64,000 bases of DNA from Micromonospora endophytica (GTDB lineage: Bacteria; Actinomycetota; Actinomycetes; Mycobacteriales; Micromonosporaceae), in assembly GCF_003236305.1 (NCBI RefSeq), contig NZ_POTX01000002.1, forward strand, positions 1-64,000, given 5' to 3'. Positions 26,853 to 49,086 of the stretch are shown here, in pieces. How positions within the stretch are numbered: position 1 is the first letter of the stretch; each line of letters opens with the position of its first letter. The notes under the pieces were generated by a model. That model was not told the DNA's origin, ran no database searches, and saw only the letters and a program-made list of their open reading frames with translations. Made by a program: the position numbers and the translations under genes.

Positions 26853-27917
26853 TCACTCGCGCAGCAGCGGCAGCAACTGGTCGCCCTGCCGCCTTATCTC
26901 GGGCAGGTACGGCGTGTCGGAGAGCACGAAGTGGGTGACGCCGAGACTCTGATATCTGCGCAGGGACTTCGCCACGTCCTGGGCGGAACCGACCAGCCAG
27001 GTGGTGCCCGCACCACCACCGCCGAACCGGCCCGGCGTGGTGTAGAGGTTGTCGTCGAGCACCTCACCCCGGGCGGCGAGGTCGAGCAGCCGTTGCTGAC
27101 CGACGGCGGCATGCCGGTTCGGGTCGCGCGCCAGGATGCCAGTGCCCTTCGCCATCTGCGCGACCTTCGCCTCGGCGTCAGCCCAGGCCTGTTCGGTGGT
27201 GTCCCGCACCAGGGTGGTGATGCGCAGCCCGAACTCCAGCGGCGGGTGCTCCCGACCGAGTCGCTCGCTGAGCTGCCGCAGCCGGTCGATCCGCTCGGCG
27301 ACACCGTCGAGCGGTTCACCCCAGAACAACTGCACGTCGGCCTCGGTGGCCGCGACCTGCTCGGCCGCTGCCGAGGCACCGCCGAAATAGAGCCGGGGAT
27401 GCCGGCGGCCGGCCCGGACGACGGGCCGGGGCACCACCGTGGAATCGGTGACGCGGAAGTGCTCGCCGTGGTGCGTCACCCGTTCCTCGGTCCACAGTCG
27501 GCGGACGATCCGGATGAACTCCCGGGTGCGCGCGTAGCGATGCGCCTGGTCACCTTCTTCGTCGCCGTACGCGGCCAGGTTGTCCTTGCCGGACACGATG
27601 TTGACCAGCACCCGCCCCCCGGTCAGGTGGTCCAGAGTGGCGGCGGCCGAGGCGAAGTTGGCCGGCCGCCAGTAGCCGGGACGGATCGCGATCAGCGGCT
27701 GGAACGTGGTCGTCCGGGCGGCCAACGCGGCGGCGACGGTGAAGGTGTCCGGCCGCCCCCAGCCGGTGCCGAGCAGCGCTCCGCCCCAACCGTGGTCCTC
27801 CAGGGCCTTGGCCTGAGCGCTGAGCGTCTCCAGGCTGTTGTGCTTGTCGATGACGTCGTCGCCCCGGTGGCCGGGTTGCACCTGGTTGGGGATGTACCAG
27901 AGGAGTTCGAGAGTCAT
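26853..27917 (-). CDS. LLM class flavin-dependent monooxygenase (SsuD-like)
   Basis: This 354-residue TIM-barrel enzyme resembles alkanesulfonate monooxygenase: ELLWYIPNQ at the N-terminus, AAALAARTTTFQPLIAIRPGYWRPANFASAAATLDHLTGGRVLVNIVSG, and YARTREFIRIVRRLW. It would use FMNH2 from a separate reductase and release sulfite from a sulfonate or oxidise a related sulfur compound. The ATG at 27917 overlaps the stop of the acyl-CoA-dehydrogenase-fold gene, so the two are a unit. It is the outermost gene of the putative organosulfur cluster. Confidence 0.88.
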   Translation of the reverse strand: MTLELLWYIPNQVQPGHRGDDVIDKHNSLETLSAQAKALEDHGWGGALLGTGWGRPDTFTVAAALAARTTTFQPLIAIRPGYWRPANFASAAATLDHLTGGRVLVNIVSGKDNLAAYGDEEGDQAHRYARTREFIRIVRRLWTEERVTHHGEHFRVTDSTVVPRPVVRAGRRHPRLYFGGASAAAEQVAATEADVQLFWGEPLDGVAERIDRLRQLSERLGREHPPLEFGLRITTLVRDTTEQAWADAEAKVAQMAKGTGILARDPNRHAAVGQQRLLDLAARGEVLDDNLYTTPGRFGGGGAGTTWLVGSAQDVAKSLRRYQSLGVTHFVLSDTPYLPEIRRQGDQLLPLLRE

Positions 27918-29047
27918 GTCAGTTCTTCCTGTGCGGGAACGGCGCGGGTGAGGTGGGCGAGTTGGGCCTCGCGTACGGTCGACGACTGTCCCTGGAGCAG
28001 GAAGAACAGCGCTGACCGGGCATGTAGTTGGGCGGTGTCGTCGGCGCCGAGGCCGTGCCCGGAGCGGGCCACGAGCAGAGCCCGGGTGAGGGTGCCGAGC
28101 GCCTCCAAGGTGACGACCTTGAGGGCGAGGCGCTGGTCGAGCCGGTACGAGGCGTCGGCGGCGGCGGTTGCCTCGTCGGTGAGGCCGTAGGCGTCCGCGC
28201 GCCACTGCGCGATCCGTGGCGCCCAGGTCGCGGCCAACTGCCGCGCCAGCGGGTCCGGCGCTTCGTCCAGTTCCCGCAGTACGGTCTGCGCCAGCCCGAA
28301 GTGGTACGGCCGGGCATCGCTGGCGATGGCGAGGTCGGTATGTCGCCACTGCGCGATCGGCTGGGTGCCCAGGACGTACTCCGTAGGCACGACGACCTGA
28401 TCCAGCCGTACCCGTTGGGTGCGGCTGCCACTGACGGCGGCCAGGCGCAGCGGCGTGGCCCGGATGCCGTCGCCGACCGGCACCAGCGCGGTCACCACCG
28501 TGCCGGTGGCCGCCTCCACCCCGGCGACCGTGAGCACCTCGTTGAGCCCCCAGCCGCTGACCCAGGAGATCGTGCCGTCGAAGACCCAGCCAGCCGCTGT
28601 GGGTGTGGCCGAGACGTAGCGGTCCGGGAAGCGCCGTACGTCGCTGATGCCAGCGCCGACGAACAGTTCGCCCCGCAGCAGCTTCTCGGCCAGCGCAGTG
28701 GGTGGCTGCCCGCTGGCGAGACCGGCCGCGACCCGGCTGACTATCGGCGCATGCTGCGCCCAGACCAGCCAGGTGTTGACGCACGCTCCGGCGAGCAGTT
28801 CGTGCAGTCGCCGGTCGGCGGCGCGGTCGAGCCCGGCGCCGCCGTAGCTGACGGGTGCCAGATGGTTCAGCGCACCCAGTTCGGCGAGGCGGCCGATGGT
28901 CGCCTCGGGTACCTCGGTCCGGTCGGTCGCCAGCGCGGTGGGTCGCAACTCCTGCTCGGCATATCGCTGGAACCGGGCGACGAAGGGATGCCGGTCAGCC
29001 GCTGTCACGGCCTCGGCCGCGCCGGTCCGCGCCGCGCTTGCTGTCAT
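27914..29047 (-). CDS. Acyl-CoA dehydrogenase-fold flavoprotein (SfnB/DszC-like)
   Basis: This is a 377-residue flavoprotein. The fold is that of acyl-CoA dehydrogenases, but text such as LAPVSYGGAGLDRAADRRLHELLAGACVNTWLVWAQH and RTQRVRLDQVVVPTEYVLG fits the sulfur-assimilation group used with LLM enzymes. The ATG at 29047 has GAGGAG four bases upstream; the frame is open to 29128 but that part is not conserved. It is divergent from the leader peptide and the ABC transporter, sharing the promoter region that carries the CCTATAGG element. Confidence 0.83.
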   Translation of the reverse strand: MTASAARTGAAEAVTAADRHPFVARFQRYAEQELRPTALATDRTEVPEATIGRLAELGALNHLAPVSYGGAGLDRAADRRLHELLAGACVNTWLVWAQHAPIVSRVAAGLASGQPPTALAEKLLRGELFVGAGISDVRRFPDRYVSATPTAAGWVFDGTISWVSGWGLNEVLTVAGVEAATGTVVTALVPVGDGIRATPLRLAAVSGSRTQRVRLDQVVVPTEYVLGTQPIAQWRHTDLAIASDARPYHFGLAQTVLRELDEAPDPLARQLAATWAPRIAQWRADAYGLTDEATAAADASYRLDQRLALKVVTLEALGTLTRALLVARSGHGLGADDTAQLHARSALFFLLQGQSSTVREAQLAHLTRAVPAQEELT

Positions 29048-29131
29048 GGTGCTCCTCGTTCCGACCCGTGATGGGTCCGCTTCGTCCGCTCGATCACCGG
29101 ATGGCGCTCGACCTATGGCCGAGATCACGGT

Positions 29132-29452: not shown

Positions 29453-31168
29453 ATGTCTGACCTTCGAAGTTCCATCGAGAACGCCACACCGGGCCGCCGC
29501 ATCTGGCCCTGGATCGCTGGACTCGCCGTACTGGTGCTCATCGCCGGGATCGGATTCGCCGCCACTCGCGGCAGCGACTCCGCCGACCAGGCCGCCGGCG
29601 ACGGCGACCCGGTGCGCGGCGGCACCCTGGAGTTCGCGCTCATCGACTACCAGCGCAGCCCGGACCCGCACTGGGGCACCAACTACGCCGAATCGTTGAT
29701 CGGCAACAACGTCACCGACAAGCTGACCTGGCAGGACCCGGACACCGGTGAGATCACCCCGTGGCTCGCGGAGTCCTGGGAGTACAACGCCGACCTGACC
29801 GAGTTCACCTTCCGGCTGCGCAAGGACGTCACCTTCAGCGACGGCAGTCCGTTCAACGCCGCGGTGGTCAAGGCCAACTTCGATCAGTACGTGCGCGGCG
29901 ACGAGAAGCTCGGCATCAACCCCAACGGCGCCGTTCTGCTGCCCGGCTACCTGGAGACCCAGACGCCGGACGGGTACACCGCGGTGGTGCGCTTCGCCAA
30001 GCCGCTGGCCAGCTTCCTACAGGCGTCCGCGTTCACCGCCAACGCCCAACCCGGCTTCCTGTCGCTCGCCACGCTGAAGCTCAGCGCCGAGGAACGGACC
30101 GACCCGACGAAGATCATCGGCACCGGCCCCTTCGTCTACGAGTCGTGGGAGGAGCAGGTCAAGACGGTCCTCGTCAAGCGCAAGGACTACCGCTGGTCAC
30201 CACCGGCGATCGGCCACGACGGCGAGGCGTACCTGGACCGGATCGTCTTCAACACCATCCCCGAGGCCAGCGTCCGCACCGGCTCCCTGGCCTCCGGCGC
30301 CATCGACGCCACCCTCGACGTCGGCACCACCGACGAGGCGCCCCTGACCGCCCAGGGCTTCAAGATCATTCATCGCGGGGTCTCCGGCACCGCCATCTTC
30401 TTCAACCTCAACTCCCAACTGTTCCCGACCAACGGCATCGCGGTACGCAAGGCGATCCAGCTCGGCTGGAACCGCGAGGCCGTCAAGCAGACGGTGCTCA
30501 CCGACTCGTACTCCGTCGCGACGTCGGTGCTCGCCCCCTCGGTGCCCGGTTACGCCGACTACAGCGGCTCGGTGCTGCGCTACGACGCGGCGGCGGCCAG
30601 CCGGCTGCTCGACGAGGCCGGCTGGACGCCGGGGCCGGACGGCATCCGGGTCAAGGACGGCAAGAAGCTGGTAGTCAAGCTGCTCGGCATCAGCAACCTG
30701 GTGGTGAACAAGCCGGCCTACGAGTCGGTCCAGCAGGACCTGAAGAAGATCGGCATCGACCTGCAACTCACCGTCGTACCCATCCCCGACTACGCGGCCC
30801 ACGCGGGCAACGCGAAGGCCGAATGGCACATCACCGCCGCCAACCGGTCCCGCAACGACCCGGCCGTGCTCAATCTGCAGTACAGCCCGCTGCTCGGCAA
30901 CGGCGCGTACGTCACCGAGGACTCCACCGGGGTGGACGTCGCCGAGGTCACGGAAACCCTGGGCAAGCTCGAACTCACCCTCGACCCGGCCCAGCGCAAC
31001 CAGTACGCCAAGGCCGCCCAGGACCTCCTGCTGGAGAAGTACGCCCTGGTCAACCCGATCTACAACCCGTCGCAGGTGATCGCGCACGCGGACTACGTGC
31101 ACGGAATCATCTTCGACGCCCAGTCCCGCAACCACTTCGTCGATGCCTGGAAGAGCAACGGCAAGTGA
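29453..31168 (+). CDS. Family 5 extracellular solute-binding protein of the organosulfur cluster
   Basis: This 571-residue binding protein has an uncleaved-looking N-terminal helix (IWPWIAGLAVLVLIAGIGFAA) and no lipobox cysteine, so it is probably held by a signal anchor, unlike the lipoprotein at 2975. The mature part shows RGGTLEFALIDYQRSPDPHW, LAESWEYNADLTEFTFRLRKDVTFSDGSPFNAAVV and KAIQLGWNREAV. It is followed by its two permeases and a fused ATPase, and then by the oxidoreductases, which suggests uptake of a sulfur-containing small molecule rather than peptides. AAGAAG precedes the ATG. Confidence 0.9.
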   Translation: MSDLRSSIENATPGRRIWPWIAGLAVLVLIAGIGFAATRGSDSADQAAGDGDPVRGGTLEFALIDYQRSPDPHWGTNYAESLIGNNVTDKLTWQDPDTGEITPWLAESWEYNADLTEFTFRLRKDVTFSDGSPFNAAVVKANFDQYVRGDEKLGINPNGAVLLPGYLETQTPDGYTAVVRFAKPLASFLQASAFTANAQPGFLSLATLKLSAEERTDPTKIIGTGPFVYESWEEQVKTVLVKRKDYRWSPPAIGHDGEAYLDRIVFNTIPEASVRTGSLASGAIDATLDVGTTDEAPLTAQGFKIIHRGVSGTAIFFNLNSQLFPTNGIAVRKAIQLGWNREAVKQTVLTDSYSVATSVLAPSVPGYADYSGSVLRYDAAAASRLLDEAGWTPGPDGIRVKDGKKLVVKLLGISNLVVNKPAYESVQQDLKKIGIDLQLTVVPIPDYAAHAGNAKAEWHITAANRSRNDPAVLNLQYSPLLGNGAYVTEDSTGVDVAEVTETLGKLELTLDPAQRNQYAKAAQDLLLEKYALVNPIYNPSQVIAHADYVHGIIFDAQSRNHFVDAWKSNGK

Positions 31169-31173
31169 CGGTC

Positions 31174-31210
31174 GGTGGTCGCCGGGAGCTTCCCGTTCCC
31201 GGCGACCACC
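31174..31210 (+). terminator. Intra-operon hairpin after binding-protein gene
   Basis: GGTGGTCGCCGGGA (31174-31187) and its exact complement at 31197-31210 form a 14-bp stem with a nine-base loop. It lies between binding protein and permease genes and probably stabilises the upstream mRNA or partly terminates, giving more binding protein than permease. Confidence 0.7.
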
Positions 31211-31233
31211 CCGACGCCCTGGGAAGGAAGATC

Positions 31234-32193
31234 GTGCTCCGCTACATCGCGCTGAAGGTCGGCCGGGCCCTGTTCGTGGTCTGGGCCGCGTTCACGTTGA
31301 CCTTCGTTCTGCTGTTCGTGCTGCCGGCGAACCCGGTGGATCTGCTCTTCGACCCAGCCGAGATCAACACCGTGCCGCCCGAGGTCCGCGAGCAGGTGGC
31401 GGCGAACTACGGCTTCAACAAACCGGTCTCGTTGCAGTACCTCGACCGGCTCGGCCACGCCCTCGTCGGTGACTTCGGCAACTCGGTGCAGTCCGGCCGG
31501 CCGGTGACGACCGCGATCCTCGGCGTGCTGCCGAGCACCCTGGTACTGGCTGCCGGCGCGCTGGTGCTGGCCCTGCTCATCGCCTTCGTGATCGCGCTCG
31601 TCGCCACCGCGACCCGGCACACCTGGGTACGCAACCTGGTCGAGGCGCTGCCCTCGGCGGCGGTGTCGGTGCCGGTCTTCCTCTCCGGGATCCTGATCCT
31701 GCAGGTCTTCTCGTTCCGGCTGGGCTGGTTTCCGGCCTTCGGCGACGACGGCCTCGCAAGTCTCGTGCTGCCGCTGATCACATTGGCGATCCCGGTGGCG
31801 GGACCGATCGCCCAGTTGCTCGTCCGCAGCTTCGGCACCGAGTTCCACTCCGGCTACGTCACGACGAGTTGGGCCAAGGGTGCCACCCGTGGCCGGATCA
31901 TCATCGGCGACGTCTTCCGCAACGCCAGCCTGCCGGCGCTCACCATCGCCGGCATCACCTTCGGCAACCTGATCGCCGGCTCCGTCATCACCGAAACCGT
32001 CTTCGCCCGCCGAGGCATCGGCCGGATGACGCAGAACGCGATAAACACCCTGGACGTCCCGCTGGTCCAGGGAATCGTCGTGCTGGTGGCGGTCAGCTTC
32101 GCGTTGATCAACCTGATCGTCGACCTGATCTATCCACTGCTGGACCCGCGGCTGCGGGCCACACTCGCCGCGCCCGGCGCCCCGGCGGCGTGA
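31234..32193 (+). CDS. Dipeptide-type ABC permease (DppB-like) of the organosulfur cluster
   Basis: This is a 319-residue permease. The N-terminus RYIALKVGRALFVVWAAFTLTFVLLFVLPANPVD and the later GDFGNSVQSGRPV are DppB features; the EAA-like loop is AKGATRGRIIIGDVFRNASLPAL. The GTG at 31234 has GGAAGGAAG just upstream. The hydrophobic segments are complete. It pairs with the next gene. Confidence 0.9.
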   Translation: MLRYIALKVGRALFVVWAAFTLTFVLLFVLPANPVDLLFDPAEINTVPPEVREQVAANYGFNKPVSLQYLDRLGHALVGDFGNSVQSGRPVTTAILGVLPSTLVLAAGALVLALLIAFVIALVATATRHTWVRNLVEALPSAAVSVPVFLSGILILQVFSFRLGWFPAFGDDGLASLVLPLITLAIPVAGPIAQLLVRSFGTEFHSGYVTTSWAKGATRGRIIIGDVFRNASLPALTIAGITFGNLIAGSVITETVFARRGIGRMTQNAINTLDVPLVQGIVVLVAVSFALINLIVDLIYPLLDPRLRATLAAPGAPAA

Positions 32194-32203
32194 GGAGACC
32201 GCG

Positions 32204-33115
32204 ATGACCACCGAACTGGACACGCTCGCCCCGCCACGCCCGTCGGCCACGATCCGGAGCGCGACGGCAACCGGCCGGCGGGTCACCGCCCGCGCGGCGC
32301 TGCGGAGAGTCGGAGAACTCGCCCAGCAACCGACCCTCGTGATCGCCTGGGCGATCGTACTGGTGGTGATCGGCTGGGCGATCGCGCCGTCGTTGTTCAC
32401 CTCGTACGGCCCGTACGACGGCGACCCCGCCGCGAGCTTCGCCCCGCCCAGCGCCGAACACTGGTTCGGCACCGACCGACTGGGCCGGGACCTCTTCGCC
32501 CGCAGCGTCTACGGTGCCCGCACCACCCTGACCGCGACGCTGCTGGCCATCCTGATCGCCTTCGGGGTCGGCACGCTGATCGGTCTGATCGCCGGCTTCG
32601 CCAAGGGCACCGTGGACACCGCGATCATGCGGGTGATCGACGTCTTCCTGGCCATCCCCGGCCTGCTGCTGGCCATGGTGGTGGTGTCGGTGCTCGGCTA
32701 CTCCACGCACAACATCGCGCTGGCCGTCGGCATCTCCTCGATCGCCTCGTTCGCCCGGGTGATGCGGGCCGAGGTGTTCACCGTGCTGACCCAGGACTAC
32801 GTCAAGGCGGCCTACGGTCTCGGGGTCAGCCGGCTGGGGGTGCTGGCCCGGCACGTCGTACCCAACTCGCTCAGCTCGGTGATCGCGCTGGCCGCCCTCG
32901 AGGTCGGTGCGGCGGTACTCGCCGTGGCCTCGCTCGGCTTCCTCGGCTACGGCGCGCCACCTCCACAACCGGAGTGGGGCCTGCTGGTCGCCGAGGGCCG
33001 GGACTACGTCGCGGTCCACCCGTGGACCTCCATCCTGCCCGGTGCGGCACTCGCCGTCGTCGTCATCGCCGCGCACCGCATCAGCACCTCGTTCCGGAAG
33101 GGCCAGCGCCGATGA
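32204..33115 (+). CDS. Dipeptide-type ABC permease (DppC-like) of the organosulfur cluster
   Basis: This 303-residue permease has the DppC sequence HWFGTDRLGRDLFARSVYGAR after its first helix and the EAA loop AAYGLGVSRLGVLARHVVPNS. A GAGGAGA site precedes the ATG ten bases after the DppB-like stop. The stop overlaps the ATPase start. The N-terminal 45 residues are charged and probably cytoplasmic. Confidence 0.91.
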   Translation: MTTELDTLAPPRPSATIRSATATGRRVTARAALRRVGELAQQPTLVIAWAIVLVVIGWAIAPSLFTSYGPYDGDPAASFAPPSAEHWFGTDRLGRDLFARSVYGARTTLTATLLAILIAFGVGTLIGLIAGFAKGTVDTAIMRVIDVFLAIPGLLLAMVVVSVLGYSTHNIALAVGISSIASFARVMRAEVFTVLTQDYVKAAYGLGVSRLGVLARHVVPNSLSSVIALAALEVGAAVLAVASLGFLGYGAPPPQPEWGLLVAEGRDYVAVHPWTSILPGAALAVVVIAAHRISTSFRKGQRR

Positions 33116-34791
33116 CCGAGACCGCGCCCGACGACAGCACCGCAGCGGCTGATCCGCTGCTGCGGATCAGCGACATCACCATCGAGTACCGGACCGGCCG
33201 CCGCCGGTGGACCCCCGCGGTGCGGGGCGTCAGCCTGCACGTCGAGCCGGGCGAGTTCGTCTCGCTGGTCGGCGAGTCCGGCTCGGGCAAGACCACCCTG
33301 GTGCAGGGCGCGCTGGGCCTGCTGCCGGCGGCGGCCCGGATCCGGGCCGGCACGATCGCGTACTCCGGGGTCGACGTCACCGGCTGGAACGACAGGCGGT
33401 TGGCGCTGGTCCGCGGCAACTACGTCGGTTTCATTCCGCAGGACCCGAACACCGCGCTCAACCCGGTCAAGAAGATCGGTCAACAGGTGATCGAAGCGGT
33501 CCGGTTCAACCAACCCCGCTCGAACAAGGCGGCACAGTATCGCGAGGCGGCGCTGAGCAGTCTGCGCACCGCCGGGCTGACCGACCCCGAGCGGGTGTTC
33601 CAGCAGTACCCGCACGAACTCAGCGGCGGCATGAAACAACGGGCGCTCATCGCGATCGCGCTCGCCGGCCAACCGAAAATCATCATCGCTGACGAGCCCA
33701 CCAGCGCCCTCGACGTCACCGTGCAGAAGGTCATCCTCGACCACCTGATCCGGTTGCAGGACGACCTCGGCATCGGCATCCTGCTGGTCACCCACGACCT
33801 CGGGGTGGCGTTGGATCGCTCCGACCGGCTCCTGGTCATGCGCGACGGCGAGGTCGTCGAGCAGGGCCCGGTACGCCAGGTGCTCACCCAACCGGCGAAC
33901 GACTACACCCGTCGGCTGCTCGACGCCGCCCCGGCCCGGCACCACGGCCGCCTCGAACCAGCCACAGGCGTACGCACGGTGGCCGCCGACGCGCCGGTGG
34001 CGCTGCGGGCCCACGCCCTGACCAAGACCTACCAGTTGCGGGGTCGGCGCCCACACCGTGAGCTGCGCGCCCTGGACGCCGCCGACCTGCTCGTCCGCGC
34101 CGGCACCACACATGCCATCGTCGGCGAGTCCGGGGCGGGAAAATCCACCCTGGCCAGCATTCTGGTCGGCTTCACCACCGCCGACCACGGCACCGTCCAG
34201 GTCGGTGACCGGGAGTTGACCAGCCTGCGGCACACCCAACTGCGGGAGCTGCGCCGCGACCTGCAGTTCGTGTTCCAGAACCCGTTCACCTCGCTCGACC
34301 CCCGGTTCCCGGTCAGCCGGATCATCGCCGAGCCGCTGCACGCCTTCCGGCTGCTGCCGGGCAAGCAGCAACGGCGGGCCCGGGTGGTCGAGCTGCTCAG
34401 GTCGGTGGCGCTGGACGAGAGCTACCTGGACCGGCTGCCCAGCCAGCTCTCCGGGGGGCAGCGGCAGCGGGTCGCCATCGCGCGGGCGCTCGCCCTCAAC
34501 CCCCGGATCCTGGTGCTCGACGAGGCGGTCAGCGCGCTCGACGTGTCGGTGCAGGCACAGATCCTGCAACTGCTCGTCGACCTGCAGGCCGAACTCGGGC
34601 TCAGCTACGTGTTCGTCACCCACGACCTCGGTGTGGTCCGGCTCATCGCCGATGACGTCACGGTGATGCAGGACGGCGTCGTGGTCGAGACCGGCGAGGT
34701 CGAGCAGGTGTTCCACGCCCCACAGCACGCGTACACCCGGCAGCTGCTGGCGGCGATGCCGGGCACCCGGCTCGCCGCCGACGCCCGTTAA
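33112..34791 (+). CDS. Fused double ABC ATPase (DppD-DppF-like)
   Basis: This 559-residue protein has two complete ABC domains. The first has GESGSGKT, signature LSGGMKQRALIAIALA and Walker B IIIADEPTSALD; the second has GESGAGKS, LSGGQRQRVAIARALA and LVLDEAVSALD, with Ala in place of Pro in the second Walker B neighbourhood. Both have a switch His in VTHDLG. One polypeptide thus replaces the two ATPase subunits of the transporter. It follows the permeases by a four-base overlap and precedes the first LLM gene by 11 bases. Confidence 0.92.
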   Translation: MTETAPDDSTAAADPLLRISDITIEYRTGRRRWTPAVRGVSLHVEPGEFVSLVGESGSGKTTLVQGALGLLPAAARIRAGTIAYSGVDVTGWNDRRLALVRGNYVGFIPQDPNTALNPVKKIGQQVIEAVRFNQPRSNKAAQYREAALSSLRTAGLTDPERVFQQYPHELSGGMKQRALIAIALAGQPKIIIADEPTSALDVTVQKVILDHLIRLQDDLGIGILLVTHDLGVALDRSDRLLVMRDGEVVEQGPVRQVLTQPANDYTRRLLDAAPARHHGRLEPATGVRTVAADAPVALRAHALTKTYQLRGRRPHRELRALDAADLLVRAGTTHAIVGESGAGKSTLASILVGFTTADHGTVQVGDRELTSLRHTQLRELRRDLQFVFQNPFTSLDPRFPVSRIIAEPLHAFRLLPGKQQRRARVVELLRSVALDESYLDRLPSQLSGGQRQRVAIARALALNPRILVLDEAVSALDVSVQAQILQLLVDLQAELGLSYVFVTHDLGVVRLIADDVTVMQDGVVVETGEVEQVFHAPQHAYTRQLLAAMPGTRLAADAR

Positions 34792-34802
34792 GGAGTGAGG
34801 CC

Positions 34803-36026
34803 ATGTCCCGTCAGCTGCACCTGAACGTCAACATCCTCAACGCGGGGGTTTTCGGTGGCTCGTGGCGCTTCCCGGGCACCGACGCCACCGCCAGCTACAC
34901 CATCGCGCACTACACCTCGATCGCCAAGAAGGCCGAGCAGGCCAAGCTGGACGCCGTCTTCCTGGCCGACGGCCCCGCCCTCGACCCGAGCATCGCGCAC
35001 CGTACCGGCAACAACCTGGAACCCAGCACCGTGTTGGCGCGCATCGCCGCGCAGACCGAACGGATCGGCCTGATCGCGACGCTGTCCTCGTCGTACAACG
35101 ATCCGGTCGAGGTGGCCCGCCGGCTCGGCGACCTCGACCACGTCAGCGGTGGCCGGTTCGGCTGGAACGTGGTGACCACCGCCGGCTCGGTGGCGGCGCG
35201 CAACTTCGGCCGCGCCAGCGAGCCGGAGCACGCCCAGCGGTACCGACGCGCCGCCGAGTTCGCCACCCACGTGGTGGCAAGTTGGGCGGCCCGGACCGAC
35301 CTCGTCTCACCGCAGGGCCGACCGGTGGTGGTCCAGGCCGGCGGCTCCCGGGACGGCCGCCGGCTGGCCGCCCAGGTCGGCGAGGTCATCTTCTCCGCCG
35401 ACCAGGATCTTGCGCACGCCCGGGCGTTCCGCGCCGAGATCCGCGCCGGTGCCGCCGAGTTCGGCCGGCGACCCGAGGAGGTGGTGATCCTGCCCGGGAT
35501 CTCCACGGTGGTGGGCAGCACCGAGGCCGAGGCCCGGGCCCGTCGGGCACTGCTCGACGACCTGCTGCCCGACGCGTACGCCCGCGCCCGGCTCGCCGGC
35601 CAGCTCGGCTTCTCCCTCGACGGGCTCTCCGACGACGAGCCGATCCCGGCCGAGCTGCTGGTGGAACCCGACGCGGCCGGTGGCTCGCAGACCTTCTTCC
35701 GGATCGTCAAGACGATCATCGACACCGAGAATCCGACGCTCGGTCAGCTGCTGAAGAAGCTCTCCGGAGGTGCCGGTCACCGCATCGTCGTCGGCACCCC
35801 GGAGCAGATCGCCGACGACATCGAGACCTGGTTCCGGGCCGGCGCGGCGGACGGCTTCAACGTGATGCCCGATGTCCTGCCGTCGGGCTTCGACGACTTC
35901 GCCGACCACGTCGTGCCCGAGCTGCAGCGGCGCGGCCTGTTCCGGACCGAGTACGACGGGCGGACCCTGCGCGAGCACCTCGGGCTGCCCCTGCCATCCG
36001 CACATCTGGAGGTCACTGCTTCATGA
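34803..36026 (+). CDS. LLM class flavin monooxygenase (NtaA/SnaA/DszA/DmoA family)
   Basis: This 407-residue enzyme opens HLNVNILNAGVFGGSWRFPGT and has LIATLSSSYNDPVEVARRLGDLDHVSGGRFGWNVVTTAG, the hallmark of the NtaA/DszA monooxygenases that act on sulfur or chelate substrates with FMNH2. The later segments GRPVVVQAGGSRDGRRLAAQ and GTPEQIADDIETWF are also typical. The length is somewhat below the usual 440-460 residues. It is fifth in the transport-oxidation operon and overlaps the next gene by four bases. Confidence 0.88.
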   Translation: MSRQLHLNVNILNAGVFGGSWRFPGTDATASYTIAHYTSIAKKAEQAKLDAVFLADGPALDPSIAHRTGNNLEPSTVLARIAAQTERIGLIATLSSSYNDPVEVARRLGDLDHVSGGRFGWNVVTTAGSVAARNFGRASEPEHAQRYRRAAEFATHVVASWAARTDLVSPQGRPVVVQAGGSRDGRRLAAQVGEVIFSADQDLAHARAFRAEIRAGAAEFGRRPEEVVILPGISTVVGSTEAEARARRALLDDLLPDAYARARLAGQLGFSLDGLSDDEPIPAELLVEPDAAGGSQTFFRIVKTIIDTENPTLGQLLKKLSGGAGHRIVVGTPEQIADDIETWFRAGAADGFNVMPDVLPSGFDDFADHVVPELQRRGLFRTEYDGRTLREHLGLPLPSAHLEVTAS

Positions 36027-36994
36027 GTACCGCTGTTCAACTCGCGCTCGGGGTCGGCGTGCCCGATCCACACCGGTCCGACGGTCCGACGGTGGTGTCC
36101 CTCGCCGCGGCCCGCACCATCGCGGCAGTGGCCGAGCAGGTCGGGCTCGCGGCGATCCGACTCGTCGACGGCGGACCGTCCGGGCGTACCCTCGACCCGA
36201 CGGTGGTCGCCGGCTACCTCGCCGGTGTGCACGGCGGCGTCGGATACGTCACCGAGATCCCGACCACCCGGCATGCGCCCTACAACGTCGCCCGCCGGGT
36301 GCTCTCCCTCGACCGGGCCACCGCCGGCCGCGTCGGCATCGCGTTGCAGGCGGGCCAGGGCGACGAGGTGAGCGCGGTGACCGCGCCGGTTCCCGACGCG
36401 ACCGACCCGACCCGACGGTGGACCGAGTACGCCCGGGTGCTGACCCGGCTGTGGGAATCGTTCCCACAATCCGCGCTGATCGGCGACCAGCAGGCCGGGG
36501 TCGTCGTCGACACGGCACGCGTCACGCCGATCAACCACGAGGGCGTGTTCTACCGGGTCGCCGGCCCGTTGGACGGCCCGTCGTCCCGGCAGGGACGTCC
36601 GGTCATCGTCGCCGACCTCGGCGCCCTCGACGCGACGGCGGTCGCCGAATCCGTAGACGTCGTCGTGGTGGACCGGTCGTCCGCCGCCGACGCGGACGCC
36701 ACGGTGACCGAGGCTCTGGGCCGCGTCGGCCGGTCCCGCCACGACGTCGCGCTGCTCGGCCGCGCCGACCTCGCCGGGTACACCCCGGCAACCGCCGGCA
36801 CCTACGGCGACGAACTGCGCGACTGGGCCGCCGAGCATCGGCTCGACGGCGTCGAACTGGTCGCCAAGGGCGGCAGCGACGCGATAGTCACCGCGCTGCG
36901 CACGGTGGTGCCGCGGCTGACCGATCCGGCCAGCACGCCGGCCACGCTGCGCGCCGCGCTGGGCCTGTCCGAGGTCGCGGCGGTACTGGCATGA
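36023..36994 (+). CDS. Short, divergent LLM-like protein
   Basis: This 323-residue protein is a luciferase-like TIM barrel by pattern: IRLVDGGPSGRTLDPTVVAGYLAGVHGGVGYVTEIPTTRHAPYNVARRVLSLDRATAGRVGIAL and RRWTEYARVLTRLWESFP, then EGVFYRVAGPLDGPSSRQGRPVIVADLG. It is missing the usual C-terminal insertion and much of the conserved flavin pocket text, so it may be a partner subunit or have a different substrate. It sits between a full LLM enzyme and the acyl-CoA-dehydrogenase-fold gene with four-base overlaps on both sides. Confidence 0.75.
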   Translation: MSTAVQLALGVGVPDPHRSDGPTVVSLAAARTIAAVAEQVGLAAIRLVDGGPSGRTLDPTVVAGYLAGVHGGVGYVTEIPTTRHAPYNVARRVLSLDRATAGRVGIALQAGQGDEVSAVTAPVPDATDPTRRWTEYARVLTRLWESFPQSALIGDQQAGVVVDTARVTPINHEGVFYRVAGPLDGPSSRQGRPVIVADLGALDATAVAESVDVVVVDRSSAADADATVTEALGRVGRSRHDVALLGRADLAGYTPATAGTYGDELRDWAAEHRLDGVELVAKGGSDAIVTALRTVVPRLTDPASTPATLRAALGLSEVAAVLA

Positions 36995-38190
36995 GCGCCG
37001 TCGCCGCCGCCGTCGAGTACACAGTGGCCGGGATCCGGGCCGGCAGCGCGCCGATCCTGGCCCGGCTGGCCGCCACTGCCGCCCGCCGCGAACAGGGCCG
37101 CGACTACGCCTTCGACGACGTGCGGGCCCTGGCCGAGCAGCGGATCACGCTGACCGGGATAGCCACCGCCGACGGCGGCGCGGGCGGCGCGGTGCGGGAC
37201 GTGGCCGATCTGATCATCGCCATCGCCCGCGCCGACTCCAACGTCGCCCAGGCGCTGCGGGGCAGCTTCCTCACCGCCAATCAGGTAGCCACCCGCGCCG
37301 ACCTGCCGAACCGGGCCACGACCCTGCGCCGACTGCGCAACGGCGACCTCTTCGCCGGCACCGGCAACGAACGCACCGGCGGGGCCAGTGGATCGGTGCA
37401 CACCACCATCCGGCCCGACGGCGACGGGCACGTGATCAACGGCGAGAAGTACTACTCGACCGGCGGTCTCTACGCCTCCTGGTTCTCCGGCTCGGCAAAG
37501 GACGCCGAGGGCAAGGTGTACGGGTTCACCGTGCCGGTGGACCGTCCGGGCGTGCAGCGCCTCGACGACTTCGACGCGGTCGGCCAGCGCCTCACCGCCA
37601 GCGGCACCACCCGGCTGGTGAACGTACGGGTCTCCGCCGACGAGGTGGTGCTCCGCGACACCACTCGGCTGGACAACCCGTGGCTGGGTTCCTTCGCCCA
37701 GCTGTACCTGGCCGCGATCGAGGCGGGCATCGCCGCCGCCGCACTCGACGACGCGGTGCGGTTCGTCCGCGAGCGAGCGCGGCCGATCAAACACAGCACA
37801 GCGACCAACAGCAGCGACGACCCGTACGTGCGGCAGACCGTCGGCGAGATCGCCGCCCGGGCCCAGGCCGCCCGATCGGTGGTGTTGTTCGCCGCCGAGG
37901 CCCTGGACGGCCTGTCCGCCGTACGTGGTCCGGCGGCGCGGGCCGCGGGCGCCGAGGTGGCGGTGACCGTGGCGCAGAGCGGGGTGGTCGCCATCGAGTC
38001 GGCGTTGCGCGCCGCCGAGTTGCTCTTCGACGTCGCGGGCGGGTCGATCACCGGCCGCCAGTTCGGTCTCGACCGGCACTGGCGCAACGCCCGCACGGTC
38101 GCCAATCACAACCCACGGCAATGGAAGGCGGCCGTGTCCGGCGCGTACCACCTGGTCGGCGAGGAGCCGCCGACCACAGGTCTGTTCTGA
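36991..38190 (+). CDS. Acyl-CoA dehydrogenase-fold monooxygenase (SfnB/DszC-like)
   Basis: This 399-residue flavoprotein has the DszC/SfnB pattern: DSNVAQALRGSFLT in the first half, GEKYYSTGGLYASWFSGSAKDAEGK, and the C-terminal HWRNARTVANHNPRQWK. Members oxidise organosulfur substrates with reduced flavin instead of dehydrogenating acyl-CoA. It is a second copy of the type at 27914. The ATG at 36991 overlaps the previous stop, and a short gap with GAAGGGA leads to the aldo-keto reductases. Confidence 0.86.
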   Translation: MSAVAAAVEYTVAGIRAGSAPILARLAATAARREQGRDYAFDDVRALAEQRITLTGIATADGGAGGAVRDVADLIIAIARADSNVAQALRGSFLTANQVATRADLPNRATTLRRLRNGDLFAGTGNERTGGASGSVHTTIRPDGDGHVINGEKYYSTGGLYASWFSGSAKDAEGKVYGFTVPVDRPGVQRLDDFDAVGQRLTASGTTRLVNVRVSADEVVLRDTTRLDNPWLGSFAQLYLAAIEAGIAAAALDDAVRFVRERARPIKHSTATNSSDDPYVRQTVGEIAARAQAARSVVLFAAEALDGLSAVRGPAARAAGAEVAVTVAQSGVVAIESALRAAELLFDVAGGSITGRQFGLDRHWRNARTVANHNPRQWKAAVSGAYHLVGEEPPTTGLF

Positions 38191-38207
38191 GCAGCGAAGG
38201 GAAAACC

Positions 38208-39248
38208 ATGACCATCAAGGTGAACCGTGTCCTGGGACGCAGCGGCGTGCCGGTCAGTCCGTTGGCGCTGGGCGCGATGAACTTCGGCCGGTGGCAGGAG
38301 GAGGCGGAGAGCATCCGGATCATCCAGGCCGCGCTCGACGCCGGCATCACCGTCGTCGACACCGCCGACGTGTACGCCCAGGGCACCTCGGAGGAGATCG
38401 TCGGCAGGGCGTTGCAGGGACGCCGCGACGATGTCTTCCTGGCCACCAAGTTCCACGGCCAGATCGGCGACAATCCGCAGCACGCGGGGAACTCGCGCCG
38501 CTGGATCGTGCGCGCCGTGGAGGACAGCCTGCGCCGGCTCGGCACCGACTATCTGGACCTGTATCAGGCGCACCGGCCGGATCCCCACACCGACCTGCTG
38601 GAGACGTTGCAGACCCTCACCGACCTGATCCGACAGGGCAAGATCCGCTACTACGGCACCTCGGTGTTCCCCGCCCATCAGCTTGTCGAGGCGCAATGGC
38701 TGGCCGACAAGCACGGCCTCATCGCACCGCACACCGAGCAGCTGCCGTACTCCCTACTCGTGCGCAGCGCCGAGCGGGAGGTCTTCCCGGTCACCCGCAA
38801 GTACGGCGTCGGGGTGCTCAGCTACGGCCCGCTGGCCGCCGGCTGGTTGTCCGGCGGCTACCGGGTCGGTGGCGAGCAGCCGCAGTCGGCCCGCGCCGAC
38901 CACATCCCCGGTCGGTTCGACATCGGCCTGCCCCGCAACCAGCGCAAGTTGGCGGCCGCGGACGCCCTGGCGCAACTGGCCGAGGCCAACGGCCTGACGC
39001 TTATCGACCTGGCGTTGGCGTTCGCGCTGAACCATCCGGCGGTCAGCACCGTCATCGTCGGCCCGCGGACCCTCGATCACCTCGACAGCTACCTCAAGGC
39101 CGCCACTGTCGAACTCGACGGGCAGATCCTCGACCGGATCGACGAGATCGTCGAACCGGGTACGCATTTCATCGAACGCGACACCGGCCGGGACACCCCG
39201 TCCCTGGCCCCGACCGCGCTACGGCGCAACCAGGGAGCGACCGCATGA
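38208..39248 (+). CDS. Aldo/keto reductase
   Basis: This 346-residue protein has a standard aldo-keto reductase frame: LGRSGVPVSPLALGAMNFG, VVDTADVYAQGTSEEIVGRAL with catalytic Asp and Tyr, LATKFHG with Lys, and LYQAHRPDP with His. It resembles the MocA/YajO-like group. It is embedded in the flavoprotein operon, overlaps the next aldo-keto reductase by four bases, and may reduce the aldehyde left after C-S cleavage. The substrate is unknown. Confidence 0.87.
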   Translation: MTIKVNRVLGRSGVPVSPLALGAMNFGRWQEEAESIRIIQAALDAGITVVDTADVYAQGTSEEIVGRALQGRRDDVFLATKFHGQIGDNPQHAGNSRRWIVRAVEDSLRRLGTDYLDLYQAHRPDPHTDLLETLQTLTDLIRQGKIRYYGTSVFPAHQLVEAQWLADKHGLIAPHTEQLPYSLLVRSAEREVFPVTRKYGVGVLSYGPLAAGWLSGGYRVGGEQPQSARADHIPGRFDIGLPRNQRKLAAADALAQLAEANGLTLIDLALAFALNHPAVSTVIVGPRTLDHLDSYLKAATVELDGQILDRIDEIVEPGTHFIERDTGRDTPSLAPTALRRNQGATA

Positions 39249-40276
39249 GCTATGGCACCTTCGAACAGACGTACGCGGCGGCCGAGGACCGCTACCAGCA
39301 GGTGGCGTACCGCCGCACCGGCAACTCCGGTCTCGACCTGCCCGCGTTCTCCTTCGGGCTGTGGCAGAAGTTCGGCACCGACCACCCGTTCGACACCCAA
39401 CGCGAGATCGTGTTGCGCGCCTTCGACCTGGGCATCACCCACTTCGACAACGCCGACCGGTACGGCCCGCCGCACCGCGCCGCGCAACAGTTCTTCGGCA
39501 AGGTGCTCAAGCGGGACCTGGCTCCGTACCGGGACGAGTTGATCCTGTCCACCAAGGCCGGCAACCCGATTGGTCCCAGCCCGTACCTCAGGGGCGGCTC
39601 CCGCAAGTCGCTGCTCACCTCGCTGGAGCACAGCCTGCGCGACCTCGGCACCGACCGCGTCGACATCTTCTACAGCCACAGCCCCGATCTGAGCACTCCG
39701 CTGGAGGAGACGGTCGGTGCGCTGGTCAGCGCCGTGCAGCAGGGCAAGGCGCTCTACGTCGGCATCTCCAACTATCCGACGGAACGGGCGCAGGAGGTCG
39801 TCGCGCTGTTGCGCCAGGCCGGCGTCCCGCTGCTGCTGCACCAGCCGCGATACTCGATCTTCGATCGGCGTCCCGAACAGAACGGTCTGCTCAAGCTGGC
39901 CGCCGAGGAGGGCTTCGGGCTGGTCGTCTACTCGCCACTGGCCCAGGGTCTGCTCACCGACAAGTACCTCACCGGCATCCCGGAGGGTGCCCGGGCCAGC
40001 AACAGCGCCTTCCTGAAGCCCGACGTCATCGACGACACCTACCGGCAGCGGGCTGCCGCGCTCAACCGGATCGCCGAGGAGCGGGGCCAGTCACTGGCCC
40101 AGTTGGCGTTGCAGTGGGTGCTGCGGCAGCCGCAGGTCACCTCGGCGCTGCTCGGCGCCAGCTCGACCTGGCAGTTGGAGCACAACATCCGGGCGCTGGA
40201 CTTCCCGCCGCTGACCGAGCAGGAACTGGCGCTGATCGACGAGCACGGCGTACACGGGACGGGACTGAAGCTCTGA
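39245..40276 (+). CDS. Aldo/keto reductase (YghZ-like)
   Basis: This 343-residue aldo-keto reductase opens YRRTGNSGLDLPAFSFGLWQKFG and contains FDNADRYGPPHRAAQQFFGKVLKRDLAPYRDEL, LSTKAG, FYSHSPD and QGKALYVGISNY. This matches the YghZ/GpR branch, which reduces glyceraldehyde derivatives or methylglyoxal; Asn replaces Thr in the FDTA motif. Two tandem aldo-keto reductases in this cluster suggest aldehyde products. Confidence 0.87.
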   Translation: MSYGTFEQTYAAAEDRYQQVAYRRTGNSGLDLPAFSFGLWQKFGTDHPFDTQREIVLRAFDLGITHFDNADRYGPPHRAAQQFFGKVLKRDLAPYRDELILSTKAGNPIGPSPYLRGGSRKSLLTSLEHSLRDLGTDRVDIFYSHSPDLSTPLEETVGALVSAVQQGKALYVGISNYPTERAQEVVALLRQAGVPLLLHQPRYSIFDRRPEQNGLLKLAAEEGFGLVVYSPLAQGLLTDKYLTGIPEGARASNSAFLKPDVIDDTYRQRAAALNRIAEERGQSLAQLALQWVLRQPQVTSALLGASSTWQLEHNIRALDFPPLTEQELALIDEHGVHGTGLKL

Positions 40277-40277
40277 G

Positions 40278-42422
40278 ATGGCCGGCTTCCACCTCAACGT
40301 GTCCCTGATGACCCCCGGTCATTTCCGGCACGCCTGGCGACTACCGCACGTCGACCCGCTGGCCTATCTGGACATCGATCACTTCCGGCGGTTGGCCCGG
40401 ATCGCCGAGGACGCGAAGATCGACGCGGTCTTCCTGGGCGACGGGCCGGCGCTGGGCGCAGAGGTCGGCCAGGCACCCGGCACCGGACTCGATCCGCTCG
40501 TCCTGCTCGGCCACCTGGCGGCCGTCACCACCCACCTCGGCGTGGTGATCACCTGCTCGACGACATACAACTCGCCCTACAACCTGGCCCGCCGCTTCCA
40601 GGCGCTCGACCACGTCACACGGGGTCGGGCAGCCGTCAACATCGTCACCACCGGCACGCCGGCCGCCGCCGCCAACTTCGGCCTGACCGCACACCCCGAC
40701 AAGCAGACCCGCTACCGCCGGGCGTACGAGTTCCTGGACGTGGTCACCCGGCTCTGGGACGCCTGGGAACCCGAGGCGGTGGTCGCCGACAAGGCCAGCG
40801 GCCGCTACGCCGACCCGAGCCGCATCCATCGGCTCGACCATGTCGGTGAGTTCTTCTCGGTGGCCGGACCGCTGCCGGTGCCGGCCGGTCCGCAGGGCCG
40901 GCCAGTCATCGTCCAGGCCGGTGGCTCCCCCGGTGGGCTGGCGCTGGCCGGTGCCTTCGCCGACGTCGTGTTCACCGTGGCGCAGACCCAGGCCACCGCT
41001 GTCGCGTTCCGTGACGAGGTGCGTCGGCACGCGGTGGCGGCCGGGCGGCAACCCGACGACGTGCAGGTCTCCCTCGGCGTGGTGGTGCTGGTGGCGGCGA
41101 CCGAGGAGGAGGCCCGACGCCGGGAACGGGAACTCTACGACACCCTCCCGGTCGAGCAGTTGACCGTCGGCCTCACCCGCAACCTGGGGCTACCCGATGG
41201 CGTGTTCGGCCCGGACGACCCGATCACCGTCGACGACCTGCCCGACCTGATTCCCGGCGACGCGTTCTCCACCGGGTTCAGCACCGCCGTCCGGGCGCTG
41301 ATCGCGGCCGGTCCGCGTACCCCGCGCGAGCTGATCCAGCGGGGTGCCGGCGGGGCCGGGCACCGGCTGCTGGTGGGCACGCCAGAGCAGGTCGCCGACG
41401 ACCTGGAGTCGTGGTACGCGGCCGGCACCGCCGACGGCTTCACCGTGATGCCGGCGGACACCGCCGTCGATCTGGAGAACTTCGCCCGGTTGGTGGTGCC
41501 GATCCTGCAACGGCGGGGCCTGTTCCAGCGCGAGTACCACCATCCCACGCTGCGGGGTCGGCTCGGCCTGCTCGGGCCCCGCCCGACGTCCCCGCGCCCG
41601 GGGATCGACGGCACCGGGGAGCTGTTCTCCGCCGCCGCGCGCTACGGCGATCCGTCGGTGGCGCTCGGCGTGGCCACCGACGTCATCCGGCTGCAACTGG
41701 CGCACCGCTCGGTCCGCAGGTTCGGCCCTCGCGACGTCACCGACGACGAGCTGACCGCGCTGATCGCGGCGGCGCAGTCGGCTGCCACCTCCTCCAATCT
41801 TCAGCCGTGGAGCGTGGTGGCGGTACGCGACCCGGACCGCCGGGCACGTCTCTCGGCACTCGCCGGTGGCCAGGAGTTCATCGCCCAGGCCCCGCTGTTC
41901 CTGGTCTGGATCGCCGACCTCGGTCGGGCCCGCCGGCTGGCCGACCACGCCGGGACGCCGCTGGCTGCCACGGACTACCTGGAGAGCACCCTCATCGGTT
42001 TCGTCGACACCGCGCTGGCGGCGCAGAACGCCGTGCTGGCGGCGGAGTCACTCGGTCTGGGCACCGTCTTCGTCGGGGCGATCCGCAACCATCCTGAACG
42101 GGTCGCCGCCGAGCTGGGCCTGCCCCGTCACGCGGTGGCCACGTTCGGGCTGGCCATCGGCGCGCCGGACCCCTCCGAACCGGCCGGCGTCAAACCACGG
42201 CTGCCCCTCGACGCGGTCCTGCACCGGGAACGCTACGACGTCGACGCCGCCGACGCGCACCACGCGACGTACGACGAGCGGCTGGGCGCATACCAGAGCC
42301 GGTACGGGCTGTCGGGCACGTGGACCGAGCGGGTGCTCGCCCGACTCAGCGGACCGGAGTCCATGGCCGGACGACACCGCCTCCGGGAGGCGCTGGAAGG
42401 CTTGGGACTACCGTCCCGCTGA
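40278..42422 (+). CDS. Fusion of NtaA/DszA-type LLM monooxygenase with nitroreductase-type flavin domain
   Basis: This is a 714-residue two-domain protein. Residues 1 to about 435 form a full NtaA/SnaA-type LLM monooxygenase (FHLNVSLMTPGHFRHAWRLP, LDHVTRGRAAVNIVTTGTP, GTPEQVADDLESWYAAG). After a Pro-rich linker, residues of about 465-714 are a nitroreductase of the NfsA/FRP type: RSVRRFGPRDVTDDELTALIAAAQSAATSSNLQPWSVVAV and LGTVFVGAIRNHPERVAAELGLP. The C-terminal part could supply reduced FMN to the oxygenase in one chain. It is the last plus-strand gene, one base after the aldo-keto reductase. Confidence 0.88.
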   Translation: MAGFHLNVSLMTPGHFRHAWRLPHVDPLAYLDIDHFRRLARIAEDAKIDAVFLGDGPALGAEVGQAPGTGLDPLVLLGHLAAVTTHLGVVITCSTTYNSPYNLARRFQALDHVTRGRAAVNIVTTGTPAAAANFGLTAHPDKQTRYRRAYEFLDVVTRLWDAWEPEAVVADKASGRYADPSRIHRLDHVGEFFSVAGPLPVPAGPQGRPVIVQAGGSPGGLALAGAFADVVFTVAQTQATAVAFRDEVRRHAVAAGRQPDDVQVSLGVVVLVAATEEEARRRERELYDTLPVEQLTVGLTRNLGLPDGVFGPDDPITVDDLPDLIPGDAFSTGFSTAVRALIAAGPRTPRELIQRGAGGAGHRLLVGTPEQVADDLESWYAAGTADGFTVMPADTAVDLENFARLVVPILQRRGLFQREYHHPTLRGRLGLLGPRPTSPRPGIDGTGELFSAAARYGDPSVALGVATDVIRLQLAHRSVRRFGPRDVTDDELTALIAAAQSAATSSNLQPWSVVAVRDPDRRARLSALAGGQEFIAQAPLFLVWIADLGRARRLADHAGTPLAATDYLESTLIGFVDTALAAQNAVLAAESLGLGTVFVGAIRNHPERVAAELGLPRHAVATFGLAIGAPDPSEPAGVKPRLPLDAVLHRERYDVDAADAHHATYDERLGAYQSRYGLSGTWTERVLARLSGPESMAGRHRLREALEGLGLPSR

Positions 42423-46131: not shown

Positions 46132-49086
<2,955 letters not shown>

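Follow-up and report, generated by a model that had tools for sequence, protein, structure and literature searches.

A natural fusion of a luciferase-like monooxygenase with an NfsA/FRP/NfrA-type flavoprotein in Micromonospora: a candidate self-sufficient group C monooxygenase

Introduction

Whether reduced flavin reaches luciferase-like monooxygenases (LLMs) by free diffusion or through contact with a partner is a long-standing question, and artificial fusions of FRP with luciferase have reportedly been studied. A title in the reference list of PMC10696468 reports the free diffusion of reduced flavin from LuxG to luciferase. In StyA2B and IndA2B, the monooxygenase lies N-terminally and a flavin reductase C-terminally, with a linker between them (PMC6165268, PMC6017014); natural monooxygenase–reductase fusions are thus already known in group E. 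Here we analyzed a 64,000-nucleotide stretch of Micromonospora endophytica DNA (assembly GCF_003236305.1, contig NZ_POTX01000002.1, positions 1 to 64,000; hereafter the window), in which one gene encodes an LLM joined to an NfsA/FRP/NfrA-type flavoprotein. StyA2B and IndA2B have the same domain order and a linker, and there too another monooxygenase of the cluster can share the reduced flavin; those proteins, however, are group E enzymes that depend on flavin adenine dinucleotide and carry a StyB-type reductase, whereas the fusion combines an LLM barrel of the flavin mononucleotide (FMN) type with an NfsA-type domain. Judged by its domains, the fusion is not a StyA2B-type protein, and the resemblance would be confined to the way in which the proteins work.

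The LLM half belongs by sequence to the NtaA/DmoA family (NtaA, DszA/BdsA, CmoJ/YtnJ, EmoA, LadA, DmoA, HcbA1, and RcaE), which shares the LLM TIM-barrel. BdsA has been assayed with added Escherichia coli Fre reductase (PMC5819316); in the fusion, by contrast with that family, a reductase is part of the same chain. Among the titles and abstract openings listed for open-licence PubMed Central, we found no report of a natural fusion between an LLM or other group C monooxygenase and a nitroreductase-type protein or flavin reductase, an absence that is weak evidence. We consider the fused gene to encode a natural single-chain, self-sufficient group C monooxygenase with a tethered reductase that is perhaps shared with other enzymes, and assign this reading a probability of roughly two in three.

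Results

The fused gene starts with ATG and extends for 714 codons without an internal stop. At E 0.001, the only Pfam matches of its product were PF00296 at residues 29–384 (149 bits; cut-off 27.9) and PF00881 at residues 476–628 (80 bits; cut-off 23.5). The NCBIfam NtaA/DmoA model TIGR03860 matched residues 6–427 with 448 bits against a cut-off of 280, covering positions 1–421 of its 422. The linker corresponds to about residues 432–451 and contains four Pro in 20 residues. These matches bear out the earlier note on this DNA, which had described a full LLM domain, a Pro-rich linker, and an NfsA/FRP-type domain in one frame at 40278–42422; its coordinates and domain calls were both correct.

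A search for the same domain order, as the earlier note had proposed, recovered a second fused gene in another genome of the genus (G301, an assembly of two contigs). The two proteins were 86% identical over residues 1–714, and the G301 frame likewise contained no stop. The G301 protein is 726 residues long, with the 12 additional codons all located in the linker, which there comprises 32 residues with seven Pro. In the six family genomes in which LLM and reductase genes adjoin (search at E 1e-150), the junction reads CTGATG without exception; here the TGA that ends the LLM gene shares bases with the ATG that opens the reductase gene, which is read in another frame. At the same site, the fused genes read CTGTTC (window) and CTGTCG (G301), so that both the stop and the start have been lost, and in both genes the LLM frame continues directly into the reductase frame. 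In the window, codon 461 (GTG) is the next in-frame ATG, GTG, or TTG, and it lies past the RYGDP sequence common to the relatives. The reductase domains of the window and G301 formed sister rows (support 99/91) in a 43-row tree, indicating a single fusion event, and unfused orthologues shared 73–84% identity per domain with the fused domains.

Simple Nei–Gojobori counts on these GC-rich genes gave a ratio of nonsynonymous to synonymous substitution rates (dN/dS) between the two fused genes of 0.18 for the LLM part and 0.19 for the reductase part, and of about 1.0 over the 21 codons compared in the linker. Both halves are therefore maintained as protein by purifying selection, while the linker drifts freely. 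The earlier note had raised the possibility that a sequencing error joins two genes. Several circumstances are compatible with adjacent genes having been merged by a sequencing or assembly error: the window's genome is a draft of 561 contigs, in the nearest relatives the two genes overlap and are read in different frames, and a different gene of this operon is frameshifted in G301, so that the G301 sequence may contain indel errors. However, the same fused frame is present in two genomes whose linker lengths differ by exactly 12 codons, and the reductase ATG has disappeared from both (TTC and TCG in its place), leaving GTG at codon 461 as the next potential start codon in the window. On the grounds of the stop-free second copy, the erased stop/start overlap, and the purifying selection on both domains, we rejected a joining error, which we regard as extremely improbable. 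The fusion would have arisen in one event: the ancestral genes lay next to each other, with stop and start overlapping as TGATG, a change of frame near the end of the LLM gene united them, and the internal start decayed afterwards.

We also examined how far the fusion is distributed. The genus, family, order, and class searches share genomes; together with the plasmids and one scan, which alone reached beyond Actinomycetota, they covered matches above their limits and are blind to remoter fusions below them. In the genus, two of 160 genomes matched at E 1e-150 (the window's and G301), and both were fused. At the same limit, nine of 354 family genomes matched: two fused, six with adjoining but separate genes, and one (G717) in which no reductase was found in the 17 kb fetched. 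The order search at E 1e-150 yielded four of 397 genomes, the window's and three unfused ones; in two of these three a separate reductase gene followed an SsuD-like gene, whereas no reductase was found in the examined flank of the third. The class search, at E 1e-118, yielded 14 of 394 genomes: the window's and 13 matched over essentially one domain. Scanning of genomes' contigs gave 15 LLM loci, none of them fused. Among plasmids, 21 records contained 80% or more of the query at a single location, and the genes were separate in all 10 that were examined. Within these searches, then, the fusion was found in two genomes only. Among solved structures (54 distinct sequences), each best match was confined to one domain, and none of the chains listed spanned both.

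By sequence, the solved structures closest to the LLM half were those of YtnJ/CmoJ, NTA monooxygenase, and BdsA, and Foldseek with the full-length model ranked BdsA (5xkc/5xkd) first. In the AlphaFold model of the full-length protein (mean predicted local distance difference test score [pLDDT] 65.2; predicted template modelling score 0.58), the LLM half was mostly confident and the reductase half was poor. The structure prediction that the earlier note had suggested for both domains and their relative orientation was thus mostly confident for the LLM half only. BdsA is reported to bind FMN through V137, S139, H156, R159, Y160, and the backbone of L230 (PMC5819316). V137, R159, and Y160, the conserved part of this pocket, correspond to V123, R145, and Y146 of the fusion, and L230 is replaced by G216. 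H316 of BdsA, a residue for dibenzothiophene sulfone, is replaced by N302, so that the fused LLM domain likely acts on a different substrate.

The reductase half was nearest to NfrA1, NfrA2, YcnD, and FRP among solved structures, with NfsA also matched (phmmer, E down to 1.8e-43). AlphaFold gave only a weak model of this half; the rows of its alignment were nearly all more than 70% identical, too alike to aid the prediction, and a search for more diverse rows matched four of 118 genomes, including the window's, all of them close. Foldseek on the weak model placed NfrA1, NfrA2, YcnD, and FRP on top with 33–38% identity but at about 17–18 Å root mean square deviation, and its ranking was used merely as agreement with the sequence result. 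R15, S41, Q67, and E99 of NfsA/FRP correspond to R480, S506, Q532, and E569 of the fusion, and R133, N134, K167, and R203 to R603, N604, K639, and R675. R225 of NfsA lies outside the sequence alignment and, judged by eye, may correspond to R699. The aligned positions are FMN, NADPH (reduced nicotinamide adenine dinucleotide phosphate), or active-site residues of NfsA/FRP (PMC8286842, PMC9912195). The residues by which the NfsA/FRP/NfrA group contacts FMN and NAD(P)H are thus mostly kept. The domain differs from that group in riding C-terminally on a monooxygenase, with its own start codon lost. The NADPH phosphate loop of NfsA/FRP comprises residues 203–211, with R203 and R/K208 (PMC8286842, PMC9912195). 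In the fusion this loop (residues 675–682) is short, a feature common to every actinomycete row of the alignment. Where these rows have the Arg that matches R203, the orthologues from rhizobia (L028, L029) have Glu-Gln; the branch may therefore vary in its cofactor preference.

FRP, a flavin reductase of a bioluminescent Vibrio (PMC8286842, PMC9912195), reduces FMN, and the likeness of the second domain to FRP and NfrA, together with the gene context, points to NAD(P)H:FMN reductase activity. Alternatively, this domain could be a reductase that processes the product of the first (a quinone, nitro, azo, or other electrophile), with FMNH2 (reduced FMN) supplied by a general flavin reductase. Enzymes of the NfsA family reduce quinones as well as nitroaromatics, and E. 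coli NfsA does not accept FMN as a substrate (PMC8286842, PMC9912195); the genome has other flavin reductases, many LLM orthologues have no reductase partner, and the operon's aldo/keto reductases hint at carbonyl products that have to be reduced. Conversely, at least two LLM lineages (LLM_F, the LLM type of the fusion, and SsuD-like enzymes) are accompanied by such a reductase, which a shared flavin supply would fit better, and FRP, one of the four nearest solved relatives, is a flavin reductase. We therefore consider product processing rather improbable, and continue with the tethered flavin reductase as the preferred reading.

At E 1e-10, the NfsA model matched nothing in the genome but the fused domain. 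The earlier note had observed that other LLM genes of the cluster have no reductase nearby and might share the fused one. Consistent with this, no PF01613 or PF03358 flavin reductase was found on the window's 87.5-kb contig, and the neighboring LLM enzymes could therefore share the fused reductase. In the family, 16 standalone reductase orthologues (the best 16 of 27 reductase-only matches) were fetched; an SsuD-like LLM gene lay within 1.5 kb of nine of these, and an SsuD-like match within about 7 kb of 11, one being a truncated remnant. The remnant (G106; L074:5351-5860) retains only residues 3–64 and 137–246 of about 356 in one frame, with an inner stretch and the end of the gene missing. 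In two more of the 16, from genomes G068 and G106, LLM_F is reduced to a C-terminal stub directly upstream of the NfsA-type gene (L012:2343-2492 and L013:1400-1516; domain residues 382–431 and 393–431); the LLM has probably been lost there and the reductase retained. Within the order, another family includes two genomes in which LLM_F, an SsuD-like gene, and the reductase stand in a row.

A reductase beside or near an LLM gene was seen in actinomycetes, rhizobia, Paracoccus, Priestia, and Paenibacillus; plasmids of Rhizobium, Paracoccus, Priestia, and Paenibacillus carry genes for an LLM and an NADPH-dependent oxidoreductase side by side or close together. Such two-gene units, also present in Actinoplanes-type actinomycetes, comprise the same two families, adjoining or one gene apart and mostly in the order of the fusion, but they encode two separate proteins, and the order is reversed in the Paenibacillus plasmid. 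Of 11 close reductase orthologues in a further actinomycete family, two had an SsuD-like match of 28% identity in their 1.5-kb flanks. The LLM–reductase partnership is common, not obligatory.

These arrangements also bear on a division of labor like that of StyA2B, in which the fused LLM would be weak or auxiliary and the chain mainly an FMN reductase for the operon's other monooxygenases. StyA2B and IndA2B act mainly as reductases for StyA1 and IndA1 (PMC6165268, PMC6017014), no reductase was found near several LLM-type genes of the cluster, and SsuD-like LLM genes lie near standalone reductases at the frequencies given above. The fused LLM, however, is as constrained as the reductase (dN/dS 0.18 vs 0.19) and keeps the Val, Arg, and Tyr flavin residues, and it does not look decayed. 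This division of labor appears unlikely to us, though less so than product processing, and a monooxygenase active in its own right remains preferred.

The fusion is the final gene of a tight row that starts with a binding protein (Table 1), and from the spacing the row 29453–42422 appears to form one operon. The likenesses to SfnB, SsuD, and DszC, all of them below the respective equivalog cut-offs, point to sulfur scavenging, and the operon is probably an organosulfur-scavenging one. A table in a biodesulfurization proteomics paper on Rhodococcus qingshengii IGTS8 includes proteins named NTA monooxygenase component A, SsuD, and SfnG among those with a proven or probable role in sulfur acquisition (PMC8557817).

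Table 1. Coordinates of the fused gene, its parts, and the genes around it (ABC, ATP-binding cassette; aa, amino acids).
Feature	Coordinates	Strand	Remarks
Fusion gene, LLM monooxygenase + NfsA/FRP/NfrA-type flavoprotein	40278–42422	+	714 aa; second fused copy in G301
LLM domain, NtaA/DmoA/DszA type, residues 1–431	40278–41570	+	TIGR03860; solved structures; model/Foldseek
Linker, ~20 aa, 4 Pro	41571–41630	+	Contains scar CTGTTC (CTGATG in relatives)
NfsA/FRP/NfrA-type nitroreductase-fold domain	41631–42422	+	PF00881; phmmer; cofactor residues
Substrate-binding protein, peptide/nickel type (SBP_bac_5)	29453–31168	+	
ABC permease 1 (start approximate)	31240–32193	+	
ABC permease 2	32204–33115	+	Named by place in ABC gene set; position next to permease 1 conserved among relatives
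ABC ATPase, two ATP-binding domains per chain	33112–34791	+	
LLM_A, NtaA/DmoA-type monooxygenase, without reductase domain	34803–36026	+	TIGR03860, 407 bits
LLM_B, short divergent LLM, 323 aa	36023–36994	+	TIGR03860, 117 bits, under cut-off 280
Acyl-CoA-dehydrogenase-fold flavoprotein, SfnB/DszC-like	36991–38190	+	TIGR04022, 268 bits (cut-off 431); DszC model, 121
Aldo/keto reductase 1	38208–39248	+	PF00248
Aldo/keto reductase 2	39245–40276	+	PF00248
SsuD-like LLM monooxygenase, divergent (start approximate)	26853–27923	-	TIGR03565, 237 bits, under cut-off 518
Second acyl-CoA-dehydrogenase-like protein	27914–29128	-	PF02771

Within this row, LLM_A (407 aa) matches TIGR03860 in two stretches and overlaps LLM_B by four bases (34803–36994). 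The two genes adjoin in several relatives and may constitute a two-subunit monooxygenase. Many relatives have a further LLM gene (about 353 aa) between aldo/keto reductase 2 and LLM_F. This gene is absent from the window, where the fusion begins right after the aldo/keto reductase (40276–40278), and is split by a frameshift in G301 (L048:12993-14029). A repeat, ATGACCG, is common to the starts of the approximately 353-aa LLM gene and LLM_F in G301 and could explain a clean deletion. Elsewhere in the window, a 976-aa frame at 46132–49062 on the reverse strand resembles, by eye, a LacZ-type glycoside hydrolase.

Discussion

This analysis established the fusion, its ancestry, the selection on both domains, the conservation of cofactor residues, and the operon context. 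From here on we infer FMN reduction, the flow of reduced flavin to the LLM domain, its sharing, and a sulfur substrate. NAD(P)H, most likely NADPH, would reduce the FMN bound by the C-terminal NfsA/FRP/NfrA-type domain, and the bound reduced FMN would then reduce a second, exchangeable FMN. The FMNH2 would be used by the tethered LLM barrel to form a flavin peroxide, by which an organic substrate would be oxygenated; this substrate is probably a sulfur compound that the operon's ABC transporter imports. Part of the FMNH2 may be released and used by LLM_A, LLM_B, the SfnB-like protein, and the divergent SsuD-like enzyme as well, since no other flavin reductase was found near them.

The linker would be a loose tether, keeping the two domains at a 1:1 ratio and increasing the supply of FMNH2 close to the LLM barrel. 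The earlier note had suggested that FMNH2 is channelled within one chain. Since the linker drifts and is 12 codons longer in G301 than in the window, a loose tether suits the data better than a fixed conduit, and rigid channelling through the linker is disfavored.

A number of observations weigh against the self-sufficient monooxygenase that we favor. In the flavin pocket of the LLM domain, S139 and H156 of BdsA are replaced by T125 and K142; in BdsA, S139A abolished activity and H156A retained about half (PMC5819316). The reductase half matched the NfsA model NF008033 at residues 467–691 with 187 bits, under the equivalog cut-off of 223, and by this measure is not filed as E. coli NfsA itself; modeled alone, it reached a mean pLDDT of 54.7, a low confidence. 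E. coli NfsA binds free FMN but does not turn it over unless E99 is changed (PMC8286842, PMC9912195), and this glutamate is conserved in the fusion (E569), so that family likeness alone is no proof of flavin reductase activity; FRP, which reduces FMN, has the same glutamate. Compared with FRP, the NADPH loop behind R675 lacks two residues, and Leu occupies the R/K208 position, making an NADPH preference less sure and, as far as these residues tell, possibly weaker than in NfsA; this bears on the choice between NADPH and NADH, not on the main claim. Elsewhere in the genome, six PF01613 and nine PF03358 proteins could feed the LLM domain in trans. In the further actinomycete family mentioned above, none of the 11 close reductase orthologues had an orthologous LLM within 1.5 kb, and at 11 of the 15 LLM loci of named genomes no reductase match at E 1e-20 was found in the fetched flanks. 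Finally, the equivalog cut-offs for SfnB (268 of 431 bits) and SsuD (237 of 518 bits) were missed, so that the sulfur role is one that we infer.

A fuller version of the reading, in which the self-sufficient LLM monooxygenase is also the FMNH2 source for the operon's oxygenase set and is seen soon after its fusion, with the unfused state in sister genera, is tentative, its chances falling a little short of even. With its drifting linker, and with unfused orthologues as controls, the fusion allows the same domains to be compared joined and apart. The question of whether reduced flavin is transferred by diffusion or by contact thereby becomes directly testable, and the fusion could yield a one-chain biocatalyst of the DszA/NtaA class.

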